In this document: positions 3,174 to 13,009 of the stretch, one piece after another
How positions within the stretch are numbered: the first letter of the stretch is position 1
Layout of the letters: every line of letters begins with the position of its first letter
Assembly (NCBI RefSeq): GCF_031834615.1
Contig: NZ_CP115543.1
Location: 3,483,001-3,547,000, forward strand
Length of the DNA stretch: 64,000 nucleotides
Source of the DNA: Stenotrophomonas aracearum
Lineage (GTDB): Bacteria > Pseudomonadota > Gammaproteobacteria > Xanthomonadales > Xanthomonadaceae
Reading direction: 5' to 3'
Notes under the pieces: model-generated
What the model was told of the DNA's origin: nothing
Seen by the model: only the letters and a program-made list of their open reading frames with translations
Databases searched by the model: none
Position numbers and translations under genes: made by a program

Positions 3174-5483
3174 TCAGAATTCCGCGCCGAAGGTCAGGAA
3201 CAGTTGGCGCGGCGCGCTTGCATGAATCGCATACCGAGTTCCATTCGGGTCAGTCGGCGCAAACGAGCTCAGCTGCCCGGCATACCGCTTGTTGGTCAGG
3301 TTCGTGGCATTCAGCGCCACCTTCACGTCCCGCAGCCCCAGCCCCGGCCCGAACGAATACCCCATGCCCGCATCAAACGTGGTCACGCCCGGTACCGACT
3401 GGTCGTTGGTATACGTGTAGTACCGCTTCCCGGTGTACTTCCCGCGCAGGCTGGCGAAGAAACCATCCCGGTTCCAGCTGATCTCGCTGGACACCATCTG
3501 CTGCGGCGTATCCACGGTGATCTTCCCGGCCACCGGCACCACCACGCCACCGGAGATGTAGTCATCCTCGTAGGTGGTCTTGTTCCACGACACCGCGTTG
3601 TACCACTGCAGCCCTTCCACCGGCTTGAGGATGAAGGTCAGCTCCGCACCCTGGCTCTTCACCGAACCCACGTTGATGAAGCGCGTGATGCACTCCGGGC
3701 GGGTACCCACCTCAATGCTGGTACACGGGTTGAGCGACAGCAGGCGGTTGTCGAACATCACGTGGTAAGCCGCGATGGAGGCCTGGTACTTCTCGCCAAA
3801 CGTACGGAAGCCCGCTTCCAGCGTCCGCGACTTCTCCGGCTCCAGATCATCCACGCTGGCCGCAAACGACTCCGGCGAGACCTGCAGCGGGCCGCCACTG
3901 CCACCACCGACGAAGGCGGCGATGTTCTCGGCGTAGGAGGCGAACACTTCATTGCGCTCGCTGAGCTTGAAGCCGATACCTGCCTGCGGCAGCACCGACT
4001 CCTTCGCGGTGAGCGTGCCCGATGCATAGCTGGACTCGGTGCCAGGTTTTGAAACTGCCGTCATGCGGGTATTCGGGCTCTTGATGCCCACATCCACGGT
4101 CAGCCGGTCATCCAGGAAACGCATGCGGTCCTGCACGTAGAACTGGCGCGTGCGGATGTCGTAGTCCTGATCGAACAGGCGGCGGTTCGGGTAGTTCAGG
4201 TAACCATCGTCCAGGAACGGACCAGTGATGTAGTAGAAGTTGCGCTCCACGTTGTGGTCGTTGCGCTCGTACCACAGCCCCGCTTCCAGCTCGTGCAGGC
4301 CCCACTGCCAGCTCAGCGCGGCGGTGATGCCCTGCCGGTTGATGGTGTAGTTGGTGCTGCGGATGGAGATGGGCAGCGCCTGCGGCGTGCCCGGGTTGGA
4401 CGGCTGGCCGGGTGCCCACCAGTGGCCCTGGCCGCGGTTCTCATGGTGGTACCCGAGCAGCTTCAGACGCGCGGTGTCGCCCAGTGCGAAGTCAGCATCG
4501 AGCGAGTACAGGTTGTCGTCGCGCAGGGCACGGCTCTGGTAGTACGCGTCGTCGATGCTGTTGACGCCGCCGCTGAAGGCGCAGCGCTGGGCATCATAGG
4601 TGGCCGGCGCGCAGTACGCGGCAGCCAGGGCGCGATCCCAGTCCGGTGCGTAGATGTTCCAGTCCCAGCCCAGGCCACGGGCGAGCATGCTCTTGGACAG
4701 GTACGCATAGTTGGCCTGGCTGACCCGCGAGGTGGCCGCGAAGGCCCCGAAGCGATGGTCGCCCACCTGCCACACCGCCTTGGCGTTGAACTGGCGGGTG
4801 GTCTGGTTCTGGTTCGGCTCGGCCCACATGTCCGCGTCCTGGTGAACGCCGGAGACATAGGCCGAGAAACCGTTGAGGTCGCCGGTGTCCACGCGCAGGT
4901 AGCCACGGCGCTGGTTGTCGTCGCCCACGGTGACGCTGGCACGGCCACCAAACTCGGTGGACGGGTCCTGCGAGAAGTACTGGATGGTGCCGCCCAGGTT
5001 GCTGGTGGACGCCACGCCCAGCGAGCCGATGCCCTGCGAGAGCTCGGCGCCGGCCAGGTTCTCGGCGATCAGCGCACGCGCAATGCTCAGGCCGTTGTAG
5101 TTGCCGTAGCTGTTGTCGCCCAGCGGCAGACCGTCGAGCGTGTAGCCCAAGCGGCTCTTGTCGAAGCCGCGCAGGCTGATGGTCTGGGATTCTTCGTTGG
5201 CGCCGAACGCGTCGTTGGACTGCACCGACACGCCGGGCAGCCGGTCGAGGATCTTCTGTGCGCTGGTACCGGGCGGCAACACCTGCTTGTCAGCAATGGT
5301 GAGGCGCTGCACCTGGCGGGTTTCGCCCTGGCCGATGACGGAGACGGCGTCCAGCGTGCGGGCGGTGGCAGCCGAGTCGGCGCTCAGCGCGGCATCTACG
5401 TCGGCGGCATTTGCATTGGCAGCGCACAGCGCGATCGCCACGGCGATCGTCAGGGGACGGTTGAGCATGAGGGTCCGTTGCAA
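3174..5483 (-). CDS. TonB-dependent outer-membrane receptor
   Basis: 769 residues with a signal peptide (cleavage after NANA, about residue 27), a TonB-box-like stretch DAVSV, a plug domain (SAQKILDRLPGVSV, ISLRGFDKSRLGYTLDGLPLGD) and a C-terminal 22-strand-type barrel ending in FGAEF. It is an energy-dependent importer in the outer membrane; the substrate is not identifiable. A second, truncated copy of its first ~151 residues and of its upstream region lies at 8624-9160, about seven residue changes away (counted by eye). Its stop codon abuts a GTAG REP. The leader region 5484-5563 is shared with the truncated copy, so the promoter was duplicated too. Confidence 0.9.
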   Translation of the reverse strand: MQRTLMLNRPLTIAVAIALCAANANAADVDAALSADSAATARTLDAVSVIGQGETRQVQRLTIADKQVLPPGTSAQKILDRLPGVSVQSNDAFGANEESQTISLRGFDKSRLGYTLDGLPLGDNSYGNYNGLSIARALIAENLAGAELSQGIGSLGVASTSNLGGTIQYFSQDPSTEFGGRASVTVGDDNQRRGYLRVDTGDLNGFSAYVSGVHQDADMWAEPNQNQTTRQFNAKAVWQVGDHRFGAFAATSRVSQANYAYLSKSMLARGLGWDWNIYAPDWDRALAAAYCAPATYDAQRCAFSGGVNSIDDAYYQSRALRDDNLYSLDADFALGDTARLKLLGYHHENRGQGHWWAPGQPSNPGTPQALPISIRSTNYTINRQGITAALSWQWGLHELEAGLWYERNDHNVERNFYYITGPFLDDGYLNYPNRRLFDQDYDIRTRQFYVQDRMRFLDDRLTVDVGIKSPNTRMTAVSKPGTESSYASGTLTAKESVLPQAGIGFKLSERNEVFASYAENIAAFVGGGSGGPLQVSPESFAASVDDLEPEKSRTLEAGFRTFGEKYQASIAAYHVMFDNRLLSLNPCTSIEVGTRPECITRFINVGSVKSQGAELTFILKPVEGLQWYNAVSWNKTTYEDDYISGGVVVPVAGKITVDTPQQMVSSEISWNRDGFFASLRGKYTGKRYYTYTNDQSVPGVTTFDAGMGYSFGPGLGLRDVKVALNATNLTNKRYAGQLSSFAPTDPNGTRYAIHASAPRQLFLTFGAEF

Positions 5484-5584
5484 GATGGAGATGGCCTGCG
5501 TGGAGCAGGTGCGTCGCCATGGTGCGAGCGGAAGGTTAAGGGATTCTTACGGCGTTGTCGCGCTGGCCGAAACTGCGACCCTCG

Positions 5585-5962
5585 TCATGGATTGGTCGTC
5601 CATACCCATAGCGACGCGCCCATCATGCCGGCGCCTGTGGAGATGAGCATTGAGGTGAGACCCCCGCCAGCGACGGGTAACGCAAAGAGCGCCGATAGCA
5701 CCAGCGCCGCTGCGCTGCTCGCAAACACGGGGGCTGCCGGGCGTCGAGTGCGTGCCGTATGGCGACACGATGCGGCGACAACGCAGGCGCAGACGACTGC
5801 GGTAGACATCTCGACTGCGCTGACACCGTCGCCGACCAGGCCCATGGAAGGCACAGACGCGGGCACCGCAGAAATCGCCGCCCGCACCTTGGCACTCCAG
5901 GCGTACACCACGAGCAGCGCCAGGTAAGCCTGGATGACCATCGAACAGGTCATCCGAGCCAT
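5585..5962 (-). CDS. Small hypothetical inner-membrane protein beside the zinc receptor
   Basis: 125 residues from the ATG at 5962 (a GTG at 5992, overlapping the receptor stop, is an alternative). Three to four hydrophobic segments are visible, around residues 8-20, 45-62, 77-97 and 103-120, separated by an Arg-rich loop (RHTARTRRP). No family recognised. The gene starts 16 bases after the end of the ZnuD-like receptor on the same strand, so the two are probably cotranscribed and, if so, controlled by the same Zur-like site. A role in zinc handling is inference from context alone. Lower GC than the flanking core genes. Confidence 0.55.
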   Translation of the reverse strand: MARMTCSMVIQAYLALLVVYAWSAKVRAAISAVPASVPSMGLVGDGVSAVEMSTAVVCACVVAASCRHTARTRRPAAPVFASSAAALVLSALFALPVAGGGLTSMLISTGAGMMGASLWVWTTNP

Positions 5963-5978
5963 TGGAAATGTCCGTCGA

Positions 5979-8309
5979 TCAGAGCTTGACACTCACACCC
6001 ACCTGAAACCCACGACCAGGAAGTGGCGCTATGTACTTGAGGGGCGAATTGTGGGGGCGCGCCTCTTCATCGAGAAGATTCGATCCATTGATGAAGACTT
6101 CCACCGCTGAGACATAGCTGTTGCGGACCGCGAACTCGCGGCTCACTTGAAGATCAACCATGTTGAACGCATCCAGCGGGATCTCTTCGCTTACGTTCTT
6201 CCCCAGGTACTTCTGCTTGTCGTAATAGATGCTGGACAGCCGCGCCTTCCATCCGCGGTTCTGCCAGGCGATGTTGGCGCCGTAACGATTGGTGGGCATA
6301 TTCGGCAGGTACTCGCCATCGTTGTGGGCACGCAGTGAGTCCGGGTTGTCCGCCTTGTTCTTCACTAGGTCCGAAAATGCCGAGAGGTCGAGTTTTCCGA
6401 ACGCCCCCAGGTCCATCGATTGGGAGACATCGATCTCAACGCCTTCCACGGTGGTGTCGGTCTGCTTCCAATACTTCAGCGGCAATCGGTTGGCGGTCTG
6501 CAGCCCGGAGTAGCCCAGGTAGAGGTAGTTCTGGTACTTCATCTCATAGGCCGTGGCCGAGGCGGCGAAGCCGGAACTCTTGAACGCCAGCGTGGCTTCA
6601 CTGGTTCGCGCCCGTTCCGGACTCAGCTTCTGGCTGCCCTCTTCCTGGGTCATGGTTGAGTAGTGCGCGTTGCTCGCGTAGAGCTCGTTGACCTCGGGCG
6701 CCCGCTCGGAGTCCGAGTAGCGCAGCTTTGCCGAGAAGCGGCTGCCAAGTTCGAAGTAGCCGCCGATGCTATGGCTGTTCAGCGAGTAAGCACGGTCCTC
6801 CAGGGTGGCGTTGGGCGAATTCCGGGATGTCTTGAACCTGCTCGGCTTGATCTGGTGGTCAATGCGCTCATGCCTGAACCCGCCGTCGAAGATCGCCCAA
6901 CCCAGATCGAGGCTTTCCTTGACGAAGAACGCGGTCGCGTCGGTCTCCACATCAGGCAGGTATCGCTGCGCGCCGCTTCCGGTGATGTCCCTGGACCGGA
7001 GGCTGGCGCCGAGTGTGCCGCTGAGTGGGCCAAACGGCGTGTGGGTGAGCAGTAGTTCGGCTTGATTGGTCTTGAAATCGTACTCGTTCGCCTTCGTGGC
7101 GCCGAGGTACTCACCCGAGGTGTTGTCCAGCTTGGCCAGGTTCAGCTCGGCCAGCTCGAACAGCGGCAGCGGGTCGCGAAGGTTTGCTTCGATGGTGTAC
7201 TTGTCCTGCTTGAGCTTTACGCCCACCGGGCGTCCTGCGCTGTAATCCGCGCCGAACGACAGGTTCTCCATCGAGAATCCAGGCACGCCGTACTCGCTGT
7301 CCTTGGAGTCCATGCTGGCTGCAATGTAGCCGCGCTCGAAGAAGTAGGTTGAACCCACGGCCAGGTGGGTGTTCTTGATATAGCTGTTGCCCAGGGTAAC
7401 GCGGTAGTTCGGCGTGACGTCCCGGTTTATCTTGTTCTGCACATAGGAAGGGGTTCCTTCCACGTACTGCGGATTGGCAGGATTGGTGTAGGTTTTTCCC
7501 ATCCAGACAGAGGTGGGCCGGTTGGTGAAGAAGGAGAAGTCCCCGTCTGCCCAGTCGGGATTCTCGGTCATGAACTGATCGATGAAAGGCTGCGATGCTT
7601 TGTTGTAGACACGCTGCACGCGTGCCTCCCTCTGACAACTGTCGGCCAGTGCGCTGTTGGCGCCGCCCGCAACCGGAAACATCTGGCTGTCGCACACGCT
7701 TGCCTTGCTGTTGCCCGGGATGTCGTAGTGTGAGATCCGCTGCACGGACATCTGCAGGTTGGTGGAGATGTTCCGCTGATTGTTGAAGTTCATGCGGAAG
7801 CCCTGCGCATCGGCATCGTTGAACCCCTTTCGGAGCATCAGTTCCATCTCCTGATCCTTGTCTTCCATTTCGCGGGAGATCAAACCAGAGTCCATATTGA
7901 CGCTGCCGCCGATGGCGTTGCCGCCAAAGCGCACGGTGTCGGACGACTTGTTGACCGTGACGCTCTTCACAAAAAGCGGGTCAAACGGGACGTTGATGTC
8001 ACCGCTGATGGCATTCATGCCGAGAATCGACTGACCGTCTTCAAGGACCTGCACGCGGTTTCCACTCAGGCTGCGAATCACCGGCGCGCCCGAGTTCGGG
8101 CCGAATGCGCCGCTCTGTACACCTGAGACGTGCTTGAGCATGTCGCCCAGCGTCCGGTCGGGCGCCTGGGTGTTTTCCACGTTCACTACGGTATCCACGC
8201 GGGAAACCTTTTCAGCCTGCACCATTACGGCGGGCAGGGTGACGTTGTCGGCTGCGTGCGCAGCTTGGACACAAAGAAATGTTGCAACAGCAAGAACGTG
8301 ACGCCGCAT
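5979..8309 (-). CDS. ZnuD-like TonB-dependent receptor, probably zinc
   Basis: 776 residues with a signal peptide (cut after AHA, ~20), TonB box-like LPAVMVQAEKV, a plug with GAFGPNSGAPVIRSLSGNR and VNKSSDTVRFGGNAIGGSVN, and a barrel ending in VGVSVKL. The plug pattern is that of the ZnuD/zinc-regulated receptor group rather than siderophore receptors. A perfect 12-base palindrome that fits a Zur box lies 27-38 bases upstream of the ATG, supporting zinc-repressed expression. Codon use and base composition are noticeably less GC-rich than the neighbouring core genes, suggesting transfer. Zinc as substrate is inference from family resemblance plus the operator; other metals or metallophores are possible. 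Confidence 0.8.
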   Translation of the reverse strand: MRRHVLAVATFLCVQAAHAADNVTLPAVMVQAEKVSRVDTVVNVENTQAPDRTLGDMLKHVSGVQSGAFGPNSGAPVIRSLSGNRVQVLEDGQSILGMNAISGDINVPFDPLFVKSVTVNKSSDTVRFGGNAIGGSVNMDSGLISREMEDKDQEMELMLRKGFNDADAQGFRMNFNNQRNISTNLQMSVQRISHYDIPGNSKASVCDSQMFPVAGGANSALADSCQREARVQRVYNKASQPFIDQFMTENPDWADGDFSFFTNRPTSVWMGKTYTNPANPQYVEGTPSYVQNKINRDVTPNYRVTLGNSYIKNTHLAVGSTYFFERGYIAASMDSKDSEYGVPGFSMENLSFGADYSAGRPVGVKLKQDKYTIEANLRDPLPLFELAELNLAKLDNTSGEYLGATKANEYDFKTNQAELLLTHTPFGPLSGTLGASLRSRDITGSGAQRYLPDVETDATAFFVKESLDLGWAIFDGGFRHERIDHQIKPSRFKTSRNSPNATLEDRAYSLNSHSIGGYFELGSRFSAKLRYSDSERAPEVNELYASNAHYSTMTQEEGSQKLSPERARTSEATLAFKSSGFAASATAYEMKYQNYLYLGYSGLQTANRLPLKYWKQTDTTVEGVEIDVSQSMDLGAFGKLDLSAFSDLVKNKADNPDSLRAHNDGEYLPNMPTNRYGANIAWQNRGWKARLSSIYYDKQKYLGKNVSEEIPLDAFNMVDLQVSREFAVRNSYVSAVEVFINGSNLLDEEARPHNSPLKYIAPLPGRGFQVGVSVKL

Positions 8310-8332
8310 ACCGGACCCCCCAAGAAAGAGGC

Positions 8333-8350
8333 GCGATGTTATAACATTAC
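8333..8350 (-). promoter_or_regulatory. Candidate Zur operator
   Basis: The minus strand reads GTAATGTTATAACATCGC, containing the perfect palindrome ATGTTATAACAT (8336-8347). Published comparative work gives a compact Zur-box consensus of the form GTAATGTTATAACATTAC in some proteobacteria; this differs at two positions. It sits just upstream of the ZnuD-like receptor start, where repressor binding would block transcription. Identification is by pattern; binding is not shown. Confidence 0.65.
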
Positions 8351-8463
8351 TTTCGCGTCTTCAACGGTGGTCAAGGTCACGGGTTCGGACCCGCGGGTGT
8401 TTTCAGGATGATTGGTTATTGCGCCCGGGCTTCTGGCGGTCGGGCATCGTCGGTGGCGACTGC

Positions 8464-8622
8464 TCACTCGGCCGCCAGCTGATCCATGCGTATGCGGGTG
8501 GCAAACCGCGGGAACGCCAGCATACCGGCCAGCCCATTGGCGCGACTCACCCAGTGCGGCAACCAACGCGGCGGGCGCAGGATGCCCTCTTCGAACAGCG
8601 GCGCGAAATCAATCGCGTAGGT
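8464..8622 (-). pseudogene. 3' fragment of a second DUF1704/QEGLA gene
   Basis: The minus strand encodes the last ~54 residues of a protein nearly the same as the C-terminus of the gene at 11196-12452 (about four residue differences by eye, including PR for SL and T for N near the end), finishing at an equivalent TGA (8464-8466). Upstream it stops abruptly at 8622, where sequence of the truncated TonB receptor copy takes over in another frame. No start or N-terminal part remains, so it is a fragment left by recombination. Confidence 0.85.
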
Positions 8623-9082
8623 CAGCGACGCCCTGCGAGAGCTCGTCGCCGGCCAGGTTCTCGGCGATCAGCGCACGCGCGATGCTCAGGCCGTTGTAGT
8701 TGCCGTAGCTGTTGTCGCCCAGCGGCAGGCCGTCCAGCGTATAGCCGAGTCGGCTCTTGTCGAAGCCGCGCAGGCTGATGGTCTGGGACTCTTCATTGGC
8801 GCCGAAGGCATCATTCGACTGCACCGACACGCCAGGCAGTCGGTCGAGGATCTTCTGCGCGCTGGTGCCGGGCGGCAACACCTGCTTTTCGGCGATGGTG
8901 ATGCGCTGCACCTGGCGGGTCTCGCCCTGGCCGATAACGGAGGCAGCGTCCAGCGTGCGGGCGGTGACTGCCGAATCGACGCTCAGCGCGGCATCCACGT
9001 CGGCGGCGTTTGCATTGGCAGCGCACAGCGCGATCGCCACGGCGATAGTCAGGGGTCGGTTGAGCATGGGGGTCCGTTGCAA
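8609..9082 (-). pseudogene. Truncated 5' copy of the TonB receptor gene
   Basis: Encodes a copy of the first ~151 residues of the receptor at 3174-5483 (signal peptide, TonB box and half of the plug), then runs out of homology after LSQG at about 8624 and ends VADLRD-stop by reading into the DUF1704 fragment out of frame. It has no barrel and cannot be a receptor; a secreted plug fragment could in principle be made because start codon and leader are intact. The upstream 75 or so bases (9083-9160) also match the leader of the intact gene. Confidence 0.85.
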
Positions 9083-9291
9083 GATGGAGATGGCCTGCGT
9101 GGAGCAGGTGCGTCGCCATGGTGCGAGGGAAAGATCAAGGAATTCTTACGGCATGCTTCGCGTTGCCTAAAATGCGAACTTCATCGTGGAACGGTGAAAC
9201 ACGGGTCAGCCGACACTTAGCGGCTGGCGTGCAGGCCACACCTCAATTCCGCCCCTGTAATGTCCGCTTCCGGCCAAGAGCGGCCGGTCTA

Positions 9292-9546
9292 TCAGCCCTC
9301 GAAGTGCGCTGGGAACAGGCGTCTCGCCTCTGCCTCATCGATCACAGAGGCCGTCCGCTCACCAAACTCCCACCAAGCACCACAGCAATCGCAGTAATGA
9401 AGAGCCGCATGCTGTTCTAGACTAGTGAGAACGTGACGGGGAGGAAGGGTCTTGCCGCCGAATCGCGTCACTACTTCAGGTGACCACTCGCTCGAGAGCA
9501 CTCCTTGCCTGCAAAGCTCACATCCCTGCTCTGACCAGTTGCTCAT
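9292..9546 (-). CDS. Small hypothetical protein with two Cys pairs
   Basis: 84 residues, preceded by a GGAAGA ribosome-binding site. Cys9-x2-Cys12 and a second pair in YCDCCGAWWEFGE (around 52-55) suggest a small zinc-binding fold; the WWEFGE stretch is acidic and aromatic. No family recognised. First (3'-most) of five small same-strand genes in the low-GC island between the truncated receptor and the QEGLA gene. The size, acidity and clustering resemble immunity-protein arrays, but no toxin gene is visible, so this is only a suggestion. Confidence 0.6.
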   Translation of the reverse strand: MSNWSEQGCELCRQGVLSSEWSPEVVTRFGGKTLPPRHVLTSLEQHAALHYCDCCGAWWEFGERTASVIDEAEARRLFPAHFEG

Positions 9547-9613
9547 TGCATTCTTCCTATACGCTCAGATCGTCCGCTATGAGTCGGAAGCTAACCATTA
9601 GATCACCCCCAGA

Positions 9614-9889
9614 CTACCGCGCCACTTGGGCTCTATCGAACCTTCGGGCTAGCGCAAAAGCGCGATGACGAAGGCTCTGCGGAAAATTTTCGTTAGCGGC
9701 CACCGCACTTACCAGGCTGGCTAGTTCGCTGTCCAAGCCTGCCCCCTCTTCAATCCACCGGACGGCTAACTCTGGCCAATAGGAAGTTGGCCAGCGGAGC
9801 CCAGCTTTGATGGCCCCACGCACAAACTCTGGCGACGTGACGTCCTTCTGCGGCGACTCGAGGAGCACAACAAGCTCACGGCTGTCCAC
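9614..9889 (-). CDS. Small hypothetical helical protein
   Basis: 91 residues from a GTG start at 9889 with an AGGGAAG ribosome-binding site upstream. The sequence is predicted mostly helical by eye (VRGAIKAGLRW, AVRWIEEGAGL, SLRHRAFALARRF), reminiscent of short HEAT-like or tetratricopeptide-like helices. No family recognised. It belongs to the island of small minus-strand genes and a degenerate copy of the palindromic repeat lies about 40 bases upstream of its start. Confidence 0.55.
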   Translation of the reverse strand: MDSRELVVLLESPQKDVTSPEFVRGAIKAGLRWPTSYWPELAVRWIEEGAGLDSELASLVSAVAANENFPQSLRHRAFALARRFDRAQVAR

Positions 9890-10011
9890 TGGTCTTCCCT
9901 CTGGTTAGGATGCTGCCATGTCGAGCCCACGACTGCTTTCGGCCAGAAGCAGACATCCAAGACGTCGTCCGACCATCAACAGCCATCTTGGCGTTTACCT
10001 GCTGCGATCAA

Positions 10012-10257
10012 TTAGTAAACTCCTGCTGTCGGGTCTATGATCAGTTGCGCCTTATTGGTTACGCACCACTGTGCAAGCTCACTTCTAAGCTCCGGCCAGA
10101 GGTCCTCGGCCCATGAAGGCGCCGCTCTTTTGAACGCATCTTCAGTTGGGAGGTAGGCAGTAAGAATCCCCATTGGTAACTCAAGCACGAAAGTGCCGCC
10201 TGGCCCCGTGCAGACCAATTCTTCCTTCCACCTTGCCCTGAACTCGAAGACGGACAT
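10012..10257 (-). CDS. Small hypothetical protein
   Basis: 81 residues (begins MSVFEFRARWKEEL, ends PTAGVY). No recognised family; a compact alpha/beta protein with strands FVLELPMG and a helix WAEDLWPELRSELAQW is suggested by residue pattern. Same strand and style as its neighbours in the low-GC island. Flanked on both sides by copies of the palindromic repeat. Could be an immunity-type protein; not supported beyond context. Confidence 0.5.
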   Translation of the reverse strand: MSVFEFRARWKEELVCTGPGGTFVLELPMGILTAYLPTEDAFKRAAPSWAEDLWPELRSELAQWCVTNKAQLIIDPTAGVY

Positions 10258-10416
10258 TAGTACCTAGCCACTTAGCAGTTGAACGCGCGGACAGATTATC
10301 CGTTATTTTCCGGCATCCTCTGGGTCGATAGCCAACAGTAGCGCTGGACGATTTTCTCAGGTGGTCCTCATGTCAGCTTTCGGCCAGCAGCAGACCTAGA
10401 GGTCGGAAGTGGTCAC

Positions 10417-10677
10417 CTACGAACGATCGCTTCCGGTCGGGTCACCGAGGCCTATCGCCTCACTCAAAAGTTGGTCAAGCAGGAGACAACCCTCGGTTTC
10501 CGAGAGACCGCTGCCGATCTCAGTGAAGATGCCTCGCTCCTTGTAGAGGACGACCCAAGCGGAGCCATCCCTCACGAGGGAGTAAGACTCGCTCTCCGAG
10601 GCAGGTAACGCAATGGAGTAGAGACCCGAATGGACTCCAGCGCGAACCAATTTGTCCCTCAGCTCTTCGATGTTCAT
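10417..10677 (-). CDS. Small hypothetical protein, possible immunity-type fold
   Basis: 86 residues. Pattern: N-terminal helix (NIEELRDKLVRAG), then strands SYSLVRDGSAWVVLYKERG and a C-terminal helix (EGCLLLDQLLSEAIG). This alternation resembles small immunity proteins of polymorphic toxins, but I cannot name a family. Its ATG overlaps the stop of the upstream gene by four bases (ATGA, 10674-10677), so translation of the two is probably coupled. Confidence 0.55.
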   Translation of the reverse strand: MNIEELRDKLVRAGVHSGLYSIALPASESESYSLVRDGSAWVVLYKERGIFTEIGSGLSETEGCLLLDQLLSEAIGLGDPTGSDRS

Positions 10678-11141
10678 TCGAGTGCACGTGCGTCCGCAAT
10701 TGCTCGAGAGTAGACGTTAGCACCGCCGGGGTTGATCCGCACACCCAGTGTCCGCTTCCGGCCAAAGCGGACATCATTCTTTGGGTACGGAAGGCTAATC
10801 GTACGTGCGCAGCTAGCAGGTGCGAAAGTCGTAAACTGACTAATACGCGCCTCAAGCGAAAACGGGTGTTGGAGTGGCACCCAAGCTAAAACGCCACGCG
10901 CTGCCAGTTCCGTCAACAAGGGTTTCATGGTTGCGGTAACCAGCAGCCTTGGCTCAATACCTGGGAACTGCCGGATGGTCTTCGACAGCAGAAACTCAAG
11001 CTGATCGGCAGACGAAATGCCGGACACGCTGTCGATGGAGAGCGCTGACGATCCCGGCACGAACTGACCTGATGCCGAGATGCTGCCTCCATCGAACCAC
11101 CACTCATCCCCGCGCTGCGACTTCCATCGATCGTGGTCCAT
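10674..11141 (-). CDS. Hypothetical protein whose C-terminus is encoded by the palindromic repeat
   Basis: 155 residues with a strong ribosome-binding site (GGGAGGG directly before the ATG at 11141). Residues 1-115 look like a compact globular domain (DEWWFDGGS, QLEFLLSKTIRQFPGIEPRLLVTATMKPLL). From about residue 122 the reading frame runs through the palindrome at 10749-10773 (NDVRFGRKRTLGV) and on to a stop that overlaps the next gene's ATG. The repeat therefore appears to have been added to, or built into, the 3' end of the gene. No family recognised. Fifth and 5'-most gene of the island. Confidence 0.55.
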   Translation of the reverse strand: MDHDRWKSQRGDEWWFDGGSISASGQFVPGSSALSIDSVSGISSADQLEFLLSKTIRQFPGIEPRLLVTATMKPLLTELAARGVLAWVPLQHPFSLEARISQFTTFAPASCARTISLPYPKNDVRFGRKRTLGVRINPGGANVYSRAIADARALE

Positions 11142-11195
11142 CCCTCCCTATTCTCCTATCTATAGCGAATGCACAGCATTGCTCGTGGCAGCTAC

Positions 11196-12452
11196 TCATT
11201 CCGCCGCCAGCTGATCCATCCGAATGCGATTGGCAAACAACGAAAACGCCAGCATCCCGGCCAACCCGTTCGCCCGACTCACCCAGTGCGGCAACCAGCG
11301 CGGTGGGCGCAGGATGCCTTCTTCAAACAGCGGCGCGAAATCAATCGCGTCGGTCAATGACATTTTCCCCGCGAACAGCCAGCGGCAATTCTGCAGGCGA
11401 TCCTCGGCCAGCATGTGGCGGAAGAAGGTATGCACCGAGACCAGCCCGCGCAGGTAAACGGTGTCCTTAGTAAACGCCGCGCCACCCGTAGCCGGCACGC
11501 CACGGAACACGCGCTGCGCGGAAGCAAAGCTCTCTTCGTTGTTCTGGCCCGCGTCGCAGAAGTAGCGGAACACCTGGATGAAGTCCGCACCTTCCCGCGC
11601 CATGGCAATGGCCTCGGTACGCAGGCTGATGCGCTTGAGCCGCTCGATGTCGATGCTGCCGGTGATCTGCTCGGCGAACGTGGCCAACCCTTCCTGGGTG
11701 GCGGTCACGCGCGGCGAGGACAGCGCCAGGCTGGGCAGGTGCGGTTGTTCGCGACCATTGAGCGCGGTCAGCGAATGCACCAACGCTTCATGGTGGAACA
11801 GCTGCGCGCGGTCATAGGCGCTGAACCGCGCACTGGTGCGCAGGCGGATGCGGGTGGGACCGGCCGCAGCCTTGGAGATCAGTTCCGGGTCCAGCTGCAC
11901 GCTGATGATGCGCGATTCGAAGAAGGCGTCCAGGTCGCTCTGCAATTGCAGCTGCAGCGCGGTCGCCGAAACCGGTACCTGCTCCTCCGGAGCCAGCAGC
12001 TCGTGATCCAGCTCCTGCGCGATCTGGATGAAATGCCGGGCCGCCTCGCGCGTGCTGGGGCCGTTGCCGGGCAACGGCTGCTCGGGTGATCCGAAGAGCT
12101 CTACCGAATAGCGGTCCACTTCAGCGGTACCCAGCGATTCCAGCAGGCCGGCGGCCAGGTCCCAGCTGTGGGCCGAACGCTGGATGTACAGCCCCAGCGG
12201 GTGGCTGAGGTCGCACTGGGCGCTGAGCGCGGCCAGTTCGCGGCGGGTGTCGGTGAAATCGAGCTTTGGATATTCCAGCACCGGCAGTACCGGTTGCCCA
12301 CGCGCAACACTGGCGAGAAACGGGGCCTGGAGCGCGGCTGGCCAGCTGGTCAACGTCAGCAGGCGGATGCCGCCAACCGCCTCCACCAGCCGGGCGTCCA
12401 GCGCCGTGTGGTGGGTTACGTCACGGTCCATGGTCATGGGCGCGCTGTTCAT
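11196..12452 (-). CDS. DUF1704 / QEGLA-motif protein, putative metallopeptidase fold
   Basis: About 418 residues from the ATG at 12452 (other Mets at 12437 and 12431; no clear ribosome-binding site, so the start is uncertain). It carries HEALVH (an HExxxH motif, near residue 220) and QEGLA about 30 residues later, the signature of proteins annotated as flavohemoglobin-expression-modulating QEGLA proteins (DUF1704). The same domain occurs in the eukaryotic MATCAP tubulin carboxypeptidases, where HExxxH plus the Glu of the xEGLA motif bind zinc. A zinc-dependent peptidase role here is inference. Its last ~54 codons exist a second time at 8464-8622. Confidence 0.8.
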   Translation of the reverse strand: MNSAPMTMDRDVTHHTALDARLVEAVGGIRLLTLTSWPAALQAPFLASVARGQPVLPVLEYPKLDFTDTRRELAALSAQCDLSHPLGLYIQRSAHSWDLAAGLLESLGTAEVDRYSVELFGSPEQPLPGNGPSTREAARHFIQIAQELDHELLAPEEQVPVSATALQLQLQSDLDAFFESRIISVQLDPELISKAAAGPTRIRLRTSARFSAYDRAQLFHHEALVHSLTALNGREQPHLPSLALSSPRVTATQEGLATFAEQITGSIDIERLKRISLRTEAIAMAREGADFIQVFRYFCDAGQNNEESFASAQRVFRGVPATGGAAFTKDTVYLRGLVSVHTFFRHMLAEDRLQNCRWLFAGKMSLTDAIDFAPLFEEGILRPPRWLPHWVSRANGLAGMLAFSLFANRIRMDQLAAE

Positions 12453-12586
12453 ACAGAGACAGTAGCAGGGTCGGCGCGGGGTGGGCAGGGTACGCGGGCG
12501 GCTCGTGCGTCCGGACGGGCGCACTCCGTGCGGGAAGCGTCAGCTCTGGGGCACCAGCTTCCGGTCAAGGTCCGGCCTTCAGGGCC

Positions 12587-13009
12587 TTGCTACGCGGGGC
12601 GCCGCTTGCCAAAGAGGGCTGGATCGAGCGCGATGGCGTGCCTTACCAGGTGGTCAGAGAGCCCATTGATGGGATATTCGACGGCACCGTCACTTTCCAG
12701 ACCTTCGTGCACAGCCCCAAAGCCGACTCCATCAAGAAGATGCGCGAAGAGTCCCTGTGCGCAGGAACTAACGGGCAGTCCGCGCCCGGCGTGACGGAGC
12801 TCATCAACCGCGTTGAAGACATGCTGGCGGCCGAGCCAGACAGAGCTGAGGCCGGCACCTTCGATGTGGAGCAGTGGGTGGGCGACTGGATCCAGCGGCC
12901 GCAGCCGGCCCTGGGCGGTCGGGCCCCGGCCGAGGTAATGGACACCCCCGCCGGTCGCGACTCGGTCATGCGGCTATTGAGCGCCATCCAAAGCGGCGCC
13001 TACCAATGA
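12587..13009 (+). CDS. DUF2384 (MbcA/ParS/Xre toxin-binding domain) protein, start uncertain
   Basis: The C-terminal part, WVGDWIQRPQPALGGRAP followed by EVMDTPAGRDSV and LLSAIQSGAYQ, is the DUF2384 domain found in antitoxins of Xre-MbcA/ParS type II systems, where it binds the RES or similar toxin. The N-terminal half (SIKKMREESLCAGTNGQSAP) is not the usual Xre helix-turn-helix. The frame is open far upstream and no convincing start exists; a TTG at 12587 or GTG at 12638 are candidates, and the gene may have lost its 5' end. No toxin gene lies beside it: the neighbours are QEGLA (divergent) and rsgA (convergent). Confidence 0.6.
   Translation: MLRGAPLAKEGWIERDGVPYQVVREPIDGIFDGTVTFQTFVHSPKADSIKKMREESLCAGTNGQSAPGVTELINRVEDMLAAEPDRAEAGTFDVEQWVGDWIQRPQPALGGRAPAEVMDTPAGRDSVMRLLSAIQSGAYQ

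Follow-up and report, generated by a model that had tools for sequence, protein, structure and literature searches.

Palindrome-bounded gene cassettes between QEGLA and TonB-receptor genes of Stenotrophomonas aracearum point to a candidate integron-like system

Results

Gene content of the locus

The window, by which we mean the whole 64,000-nucleotide stretch analysed (Stenotrophomonas aracearum, contig NZ_CP115543.1, positions 3,483,001 to 3,547,000 of the forward strand), belongs to a genome assembled as a single contig of 4.33 Mb and contains a site bordered by an intact QEGLA/MATCAP gene and an intact TonB-receptor gene (Table 1). Read along the minus strand, the order is QEGLA, five small open reading frames (ORFs s1 to s5, 11141-9292; hereafter the island), the 5' part of a second receptor gene, the 3' part of a second QEGLA gene, a ZnuD-like receptor gene, a 135-aa ORF and the intact receptor gene. 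An earlier note on this DNA had described an interval present twice with different contents; the palindrome-bounded cassettes of the first interval, which are our main subject, were missed in it. The QEGLA gene has its nearest named match in Stenotrophomonas sp. VV52 (100%). No match to any of the five small genes was found in Pfam, PADLOC or NCBIfam, and they are therefore given no immunity or defence label. Scans of the window with Rfam (gathering thresholds) and for tRNA genes returned nothing.

A palindrome accompanies each small gene of the island

A hairpin, first apparent on reading the corresponding intervals of two of the nearest genomes (G004, of the same species, and G005), is also present in the island. 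Oriented, it is a 26-28-bp palindrome, ATGTCCGCTTT-nGGnCn-AAAGCGGACAT, in four clear copies and one degenerate copy. A pattern scan (arms: TGTC[CT]GCTT and its reverse complement; spacer: 5-9; mismatches: up to 3) located the four clear copies as the only ones in the 64 kb, all of them in the island and within 1.5 kb; the same scan of ten base-shuffled windows gave no copy in eight and one copy in two. The four palindromes share one orientation (minus-strand form ...TGGCCGG/A...) and are placed after s2, s3 and s5 and within the called 3' end of s1, with the degenerate one after s4.

Single cassettes recur at unrelated loci

The s1 cassette was found at other loci in G070 (93% identity, locus L218) and G057 (89%, L217), with homology running from palindrome to palindrome and ending at the palindrome that lies within the called s1 ORF. 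The s3 cassette was found at another locus in G057 (89%, L216) with edges inside both palindromes: agreement starts at AGCTGACAT on the left and runs through CTGGCCGA on the right, so placed that both s3 exchanges would fit within the 8-bp CTGGCCGA of the palindrome centre. When 126 loci were compared, 109 isolated shared segments were obtained; a palindrome stood at both edges in 4 of them and at one edge in 3, and QEGLA and receptor genes make up most of the remainder. The s3 protein has 107 clustered homologs, including ones from Alteromonas, Chitiniphilus and Sphingomonas and many on short contigs, and s3 is possibly a member of a widely traded cassette family.

The element on plasmids and in prophages of other genera

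Across the phylum, 54 of 299 genomes carry the element at up to 2 mismatches (87 forward matches versus 6 for the reversed pattern). A blastn search with the element returned 819 of 72,556 plasmid records and 3,538 of 5,426 E. coli genomes, at a loose limit (E up to 10) that lets chance matches into both counts; a phage collection gave weak matches only, in 13 records.

Two related Pantoea plasmids differ by a cassette of ~1 kb that lies exactly between two elements in one, versus an empty site with one element in the other. Genes of the same Pantoea plasmid were found without their neighbours on plasmids of Pantoea, Klebsiella, Enterobacter, E. coli and Erwinia. The edges of four cassettes from one Pantoea plasmid were examined at 17 other loci, picked by hand among the 60 records listed out of 101; they fell no more than 20 bp from a palindrome centre in 15/18 comparisons on the left and 13/18 on the right. 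In E. coli, the same cassette stands beside a recombinase gene at locus L264 and in a prophage at L239; the two loci are identical through GTCCGCTGTTGGCACA, after which one continues into the recombinase and the other into the prophage. On the DUF977 side of E. coli prophages, 21 of 36 listed matches (H132-H167, from a listing sampled across 4,144 records) start at the palindrome, and the other 15 start at least 85 bp inside it. As far as sequence comparison goes, the cassette edges of s1, s3, the Pantoea plasmids and L264/L239 are consistent with excision as circles and site-specific recombination. The cargo of the cassettes comprises GNAT acetyltransferases, DUF proteins, small proteins of unknown function, a putative protease and a chemotaxis receptor.

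Several further observations were made on these replicons. A Pantoea vagans plasmid carries, between two palindromes, a fosfomycin-thiol-transferase-like gene annotated as fos (L263:9566-10236; FosA8-like, 54.68% identity). In the Enterobacterales loci L263, L237 and L261, palindrome types with centres like TTCTGGCACA and TATGAGCGAG are often 12-14 bp apart, and such pairs between cassettes leave a unit of ~38-40 bp, centre to centre, without a gene. In L312 and L315, half-palindrome edges are likely insertion-sequence borders and were discounted as evidence for cassettes. The edges at L312:1427 and L315:601 fall on a palindrome centre and have the same 11 bp alongside (GTGAGTTCAAC or its complement); the IS30-family element ISCfr4 is annotated beside the L315 edge, and the palindrome centre may be its target.

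A 200-residue tyrosine recombinase beside cassettes

Among the cassettes of L261 and L264 lies a 200-aa gene named as a site-specific integrase; the two proteins are 87% identical. Its only domain is the Phage_integrase catalytic domain (Pfam PF00589, residues 35-184 of 200), and it resembles XerC from XerC residue 127 on. R51, K79, H148, R151, H174 and Y183, which we take to be the catalytic residues, are kept in at least 97% of 32 homologs. An RKHRH pentad plus tyrosine is named in PMC8138268. The family was found in 45 of 299 phylum genomes, 5 of 91 genomes of the genus and 395 of 72,556 plasmid records.

On the 3' side of the recombinase stop codon, in many loci after a hairpin, comes the right half of the palindrome. 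Its frequency was determined within 100 bp 3' of the stop and compared with stretches 500 bp further on, upstream stretches, the other strand and 740 shuffles. At up to 1 mismatch the half palindrome was found in 17/37 flanks, against 1/35 further on, 1/37 upstream, 3/37 on the other strand and 6/740 shuffles; at up to 2 mismatches the corresponding counts were 25/37, 3/35, 2/37, 6/37 and 51/740. In G057, the genome with the most element copies in the genus list, the recombinase gene (2249043-2249657) is located between the s3 (2243045-2243502) and s1 (2259090-2259542) cassettes, with a palindrome 46 bp downstream of the stop codon. Of the genes flanking the G057 array, ten larger ones (MFS, LysR and others) were considered as possible recombinases and rejected. 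Both searches covered 299 phylum genomes, and every genome listed for the recombinase was also in the sample scanned for the element; the element was matched in 15/45 recombinase-positive versus 39/254 recombinase-negative genomes (p = 0.006). So loose a link would be expected if cassettes outlive the enzyme or if the palindrome arms vary by taxon.

Variation of the site among relatives

QEGLA was matched in 88 of 91 genomes of the genus. An extra QEGLA 3' fragment inside a contig was found in the window's genome only (a second match in G078 sits at a contig end), and the complete arrangement occurs in this 1 of the 91 genus genomes searched; the earlier note had held that finding it whole in relatives, with no single-cargo alleles, would speak against a variable site. 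The site was compared in 80 relatives' loci (L114-L193), where the receptor gene has the same orientation relative to QEGLA in 25, is inverted in 39 and has no match in 16. Same-orientation intervals measure 125-223 bp in 14 loci, 384-839 bp in 9, 1.7 kb in G004 and 2.8 kb in G005. The two longest hold genes other than those of the window, and different ones from each other; the intervals of the near relatives G057 (131 bp), G028 (156 bp) and G027 (160 bp) are almost empty. The proposal that this is a variable-cargo site is borne out by these intervals. Among the relatives' loci there was no genome with only the zinc cargo and none with the same small-gene island at this site. The ZnuD-like gene had no match in the 80 loci, and its best relatives are 76% identical in nucleotides and located elsewhere.

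Palindromes (up to 3 mismatches) lie within the interval in G004 (two) and G005 (three), that is in 2 of the 80 relatives' loci, and in the window; cassette-based variability is limited to these three nearest genomes. Four further loci (L121, L122, L125 and L127) hold mutually similar, different cargo in intervals of 756-839 bp that contain no palindrome. A record titled Bacillus subtilis SK7B5 (L042) holds this Stenotrophomonas locus (93% QEGLA identity), and its label or assembly is probably wrong.

The window was compared with G004 in steps of 100 bases, in which identity is 99-100% from ~13000 to ~11900 and then 88-96% up to the interval, placing an exchange border within QEGLA at ~11900. 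Against the same-species locus L114, window positions 11900-13000 form a tract of ~1.1 kb at 99-100%, flanked by steps at 88-99%, in the manner of an exchange tract. Such a border is what would be expected of plain allele exchange, in which homologous recombination in the flanking QEGLA and receptor genes swaps whole intervals and the palindromes are hairpins or terminators carried along; the second interval, itself a divergent allele, also fits, and exchange of this kind surely contributes at the locus. As a full account it is nevertheless unlikely, for it accounts neither for cassettes that recur at unrelated loci and end within the palindrome nor for a recombinase gene followed on its 3' side by a half palindrome. 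Palindrome-bounded cassettes account for the variability of the cargo better than allele exchange alone.

The second interval and its joint

Copies of the region around the joint were sought genome-wide with window positions 8400-9200 as query, which returned the query stretch itself and two partial copies at the places the earlier note had given. The direct repeats are 5027-5326 versus 8626-8925 (92% identical) and 8444-8629 versus 11176-11361 (84% identical). Together with the minus-strand gene order, these results confirm two intervals with different cargo: the segment is present twice, as in a merodiploid, with one novel joint near 8623. The joint, GCAGGGC/GTCGCTGACC, has at most 3 bp in common with either parent and, by eye, no palindrome. 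The duplicated homology is longer than first described, reaching ~9152 upstream of the receptor gene and ~8444 downstream of QEGLA.

Compared with its intact copy, the receptor part has 8 non-synonymous and 27 synonymous codon differences in 152 codons (codon positions 3/5/28), and the QEGLA part has 4 and 14 in 53 (4/2/14); the non-synonymous counts are close to the ~7 of 151 and ~4 of 54 residues reported before. Because this codon-position and synonymous bias is a mark of selection, the fragments likely come from a divergent functional allele: both likely diverged as working genes and not by decay in place, and the second copy is likely such an allele, as already proposed, in preference to a fresh duplication. 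Among the alleles listed, those of G000, G004 and G005 share 92-93% identity with the receptor fragment, the others reaching ~85% at most; for the QEGLA fragment no clear nearest allele emerges, many standing at 85-89%.

The second interval, with its receptor 5' part, QEGLA 3' part and ZnuD-like gene, is likely the result of an event separate from the cassette array. Homologous or illegitimate recombination likely introduced a divergent allele of the interval, which was joined at 8622-8624 with no palindrome involved. Whether it arrived by single-crossover integration of a circle bearing the ZnuD allele, leaving a merodiploid, we regard as possible but somewhat doubtful: the gene order, the single novel joint and the difference between the alleles fit, yet a tandem duplication followed by a swap of one cargo yields the identical order, and a joint with 3 bp of microhomology at most and no palindrome does not need the cassette recombinase. 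That the joint is an artefact of assembly is barely credible; it was judged from the assembled sequence and not from reads, but the genome is a single contig and the fragments differ by 8-16% from the other copies in it, so that they are not misplaced copies. Flanking of the ZnuD-like gene and the 135-aa ORF by degenerate palindromes was considered and dropped, the right-hand candidate TTTCGGCCAG near 5570 being part of a GTCGCA...TTT motif, which is also found upstream of the receptor in empty sites.

Table 1. Features of the QEGLA–TonB-receptor site, in window coordinates and in minus-strand order
Feature	Position	Strand	Remarks
Intact QEGLA/MATCAP gene, left border of site	11196-12452	-	Pfam MATCAP PF08014, 395.8 bits
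Cassette gene s1	10674-11141	-	called ORF runs through its palindrome; cassette 1 ~11171-10745
Palindrome 1	10749-10773	-	0 arm mismatches
Cassette gene s2, 86 aa	10417-10677	-	no family match
Palindrome 2	10371-10396	-	3 mismatches
Cassette gene s3, 81 aa	10012-10257	-	cassette 3 ~10395-9939
Palindrome 3	9930-9955	-	2 mismatches
Cassette gene s4, 91 aa	9614-9889	-	no family match
Degenerate palindrome, s4/s5 gap	9571-9597	-	by eye; right half AGCGGAC kept; missed by pattern scans
Cassette gene s5, 84 aa	9292-9546	-	no family match
Palindrome 4	9261-9286	-	3 mismatches
5' part of second TonB-receptor allele	8624-9082	-	92% nucleotide identity to intact copy
Novel joint	8622-8624	-	at most 3 bp microhomology, by eye
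3' part of second QEGLA allele	8464-8622	-	84-86% nucleotide identity to intact gene
ZnuD-like TonB receptor, second-interval cargo	5979-8309	-	NCBIfam ZnuD 169.8 bits, below cut-off of 950
135-aa ORF after ZnuD-like receptor	5585-5992	-	no family match
Intact TonB receptor, right border of site	3174-5483	-	PF00593, 137.4 bits

Comparison with known systems

The arrangement was compared with known systems of cassettes and tyrosine recombinases. As in integrons, cassettes that mostly hold a single gene stand in arrays, all in the same orientation and each followed by its palindromic site (that of s4 being degenerate), and integrase-less arrays are known there too; a tyrosine recombinase gene has an adjacent, here putative, attachment half-site, which by its position 3' of the stop in 17/37 flanks would be attI-like; and the cargo of acetyltransferases, DUF proteins and small proteins of unknown function is similar. 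Unlike integrons, the recombinase has 200 aa and consists of the catalytic domain alone, the site is a 26-28-bp near-perfect palindrome, and the half-site stands at the 3' end of the recombinase gene, which converges with the next gene in G057 and E. coli L264, though not in L261. Cores of attC sites need GTT/AAC, and neither GTT nor AAC occurs in the four palindromes of the window. Against the integron-integrase model TIGR02249 (cut-off 265) the recombinase scored 19.5 bits for G057 and gave no match at E 0.01 for E. coli, the window's own genome not having been searched for IntI itself.

These values bear on whether the island could be a CALIN, in which ordinary attC sites of integrons cluster without an integrase. 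A row of small-gene cassettes that all point the same way, with a palindromic site at the 3' end of the gene, would suit it, and PMC12444791 reports integrons, lone integrases or CALINs, found with IntegronFinder, in 93% of Xanthomonas genomes; the palindromes without GTT/AAC and a recombinase so far below the cut-off make it very improbable.

Modules bounded by short Xer sites are also known as dif (pdif) modules of Acinetobacter plasmids, which are reported to be moved by XerC/XerD. For the present system a dedicated small recombinase is proposed in place of the chromosomal Xer pair, and its distribution is phylum-wide. Xer sites have a layout of 28 bp (11-6-11), and the palindrome arms presumably differ in sequence from dif. 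FimB/FimE-type invertases are likewise ~200 aa long, and the recombinase gave weak matches to their models, PRK09871 (25.5 bits, cut-off 222) and PRK09870 (18.1 bits, cut-off 221), both far below the cut-offs. RIT elements (recombinases in trio) resemble the system as simple tyrosine recombinases tied to mobile DNA, as described in PMC8138268; three adjacent recombinase genes were not found in L217, L261 or L264, since L217 and L264 have one gene each and L261 has one intact and one broken gene ~6 kb apart. The same source states that simple tyrosine recombinases usually have a core-binding and a catalytic domain and divides them into fourteen subgroups, one of them integron-like; its section 7 does not describe a catalytic-domain-only cassette family. 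Literature searched by sequence and by concept, a scope that left out preprints and most subscription papers, contained no description of the palindrome or cassette system, and 12-14-letter strings of the palindrome matched only in unrelated fields.

Discussion

We consider it probable that the first interval is an integrase-less array of five cassettes, that the palindrome is the attachment site of the ~200-residue tyrosine recombinase and that cassettes are inserted and excised one by one, as in integrons. This interpretation is based on the element and its spacing, the cassette boundaries, the re-use of cassettes, the recombinase beside cassettes and the enrichment of the half-site. In the proposed mechanism, the recombinase would pair two palindromes and exchange strands in the central 6-8 bp of the palindrome, whereby a cassette would be released or captured as a circle. 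The system likely works like an integron, and it is not a member of the integrons.

A number of results weigh against this interpretation. The 80 of 91 genus genomes with at least one match at up to 3 mismatches include chance matches (the reversed control gave 0-3 per strand). By DNA, only two of the five island cassettes (s1 and s3) were found elsewhere, and cassette-like shared segments between L220/L221, L222/L229, L224/L260, L236/L243 and L237/L243 have no palindrome within 20 bp of either edge. The filled and empty Pantoea sites and the other swaps could stem from RecA-dependent exchange between repeats; in an Erwinia and a Klebsiella michiganensis context neither edge lies at a palindrome; and the L312 right and L315 left edges abut an apparent insertion sequence and are discounted. 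As for the recombinase, 20/37 flanks have no half palindrome at 1 mismatch, 39/254 recombinase-negative genomes have the element, 30/45 recombinase-positive ones do not match the pattern, and in the genus only 5/91 genomes carry the gene, in some cases as broken copies.

The recombinase is also absent from the window's own genome at E 1e-20, and the array here is therefore likely passive now, frozen in place and transmitted through ordinary recombination between the QEGLA and receptor genes. The exchange border at ~11900 and the divergent second interval would be traces of such recombination across these genes. The earlier interpretation as a whole is partly supported.

Beyond this locus, we lean towards a second kind of integron, independent of IntI/attC and present across Pseudomonadota. 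Its 200-residue recombinase, made up of the catalytic domain alone, would take up single genes in circular form at a short palindrome beside its own stop codon; the cassettes would then spread to chromosomes, plasmids and prophages in arrays without an integrase, the QEGLA–receptor interval being one such array. The components are few, one 200-residue protein and one 28-bp site, which makes a direct test cheap. If the recombinase moves the cassettes, a large unannotated share of small-gene exchange in Proteobacteria may use a system for which standard integron finders are probably not built; and with a cassette cargo that includes a fosfomycin-thiol-transferase-like gene, it may contribute to adaptation in the way integrons do.

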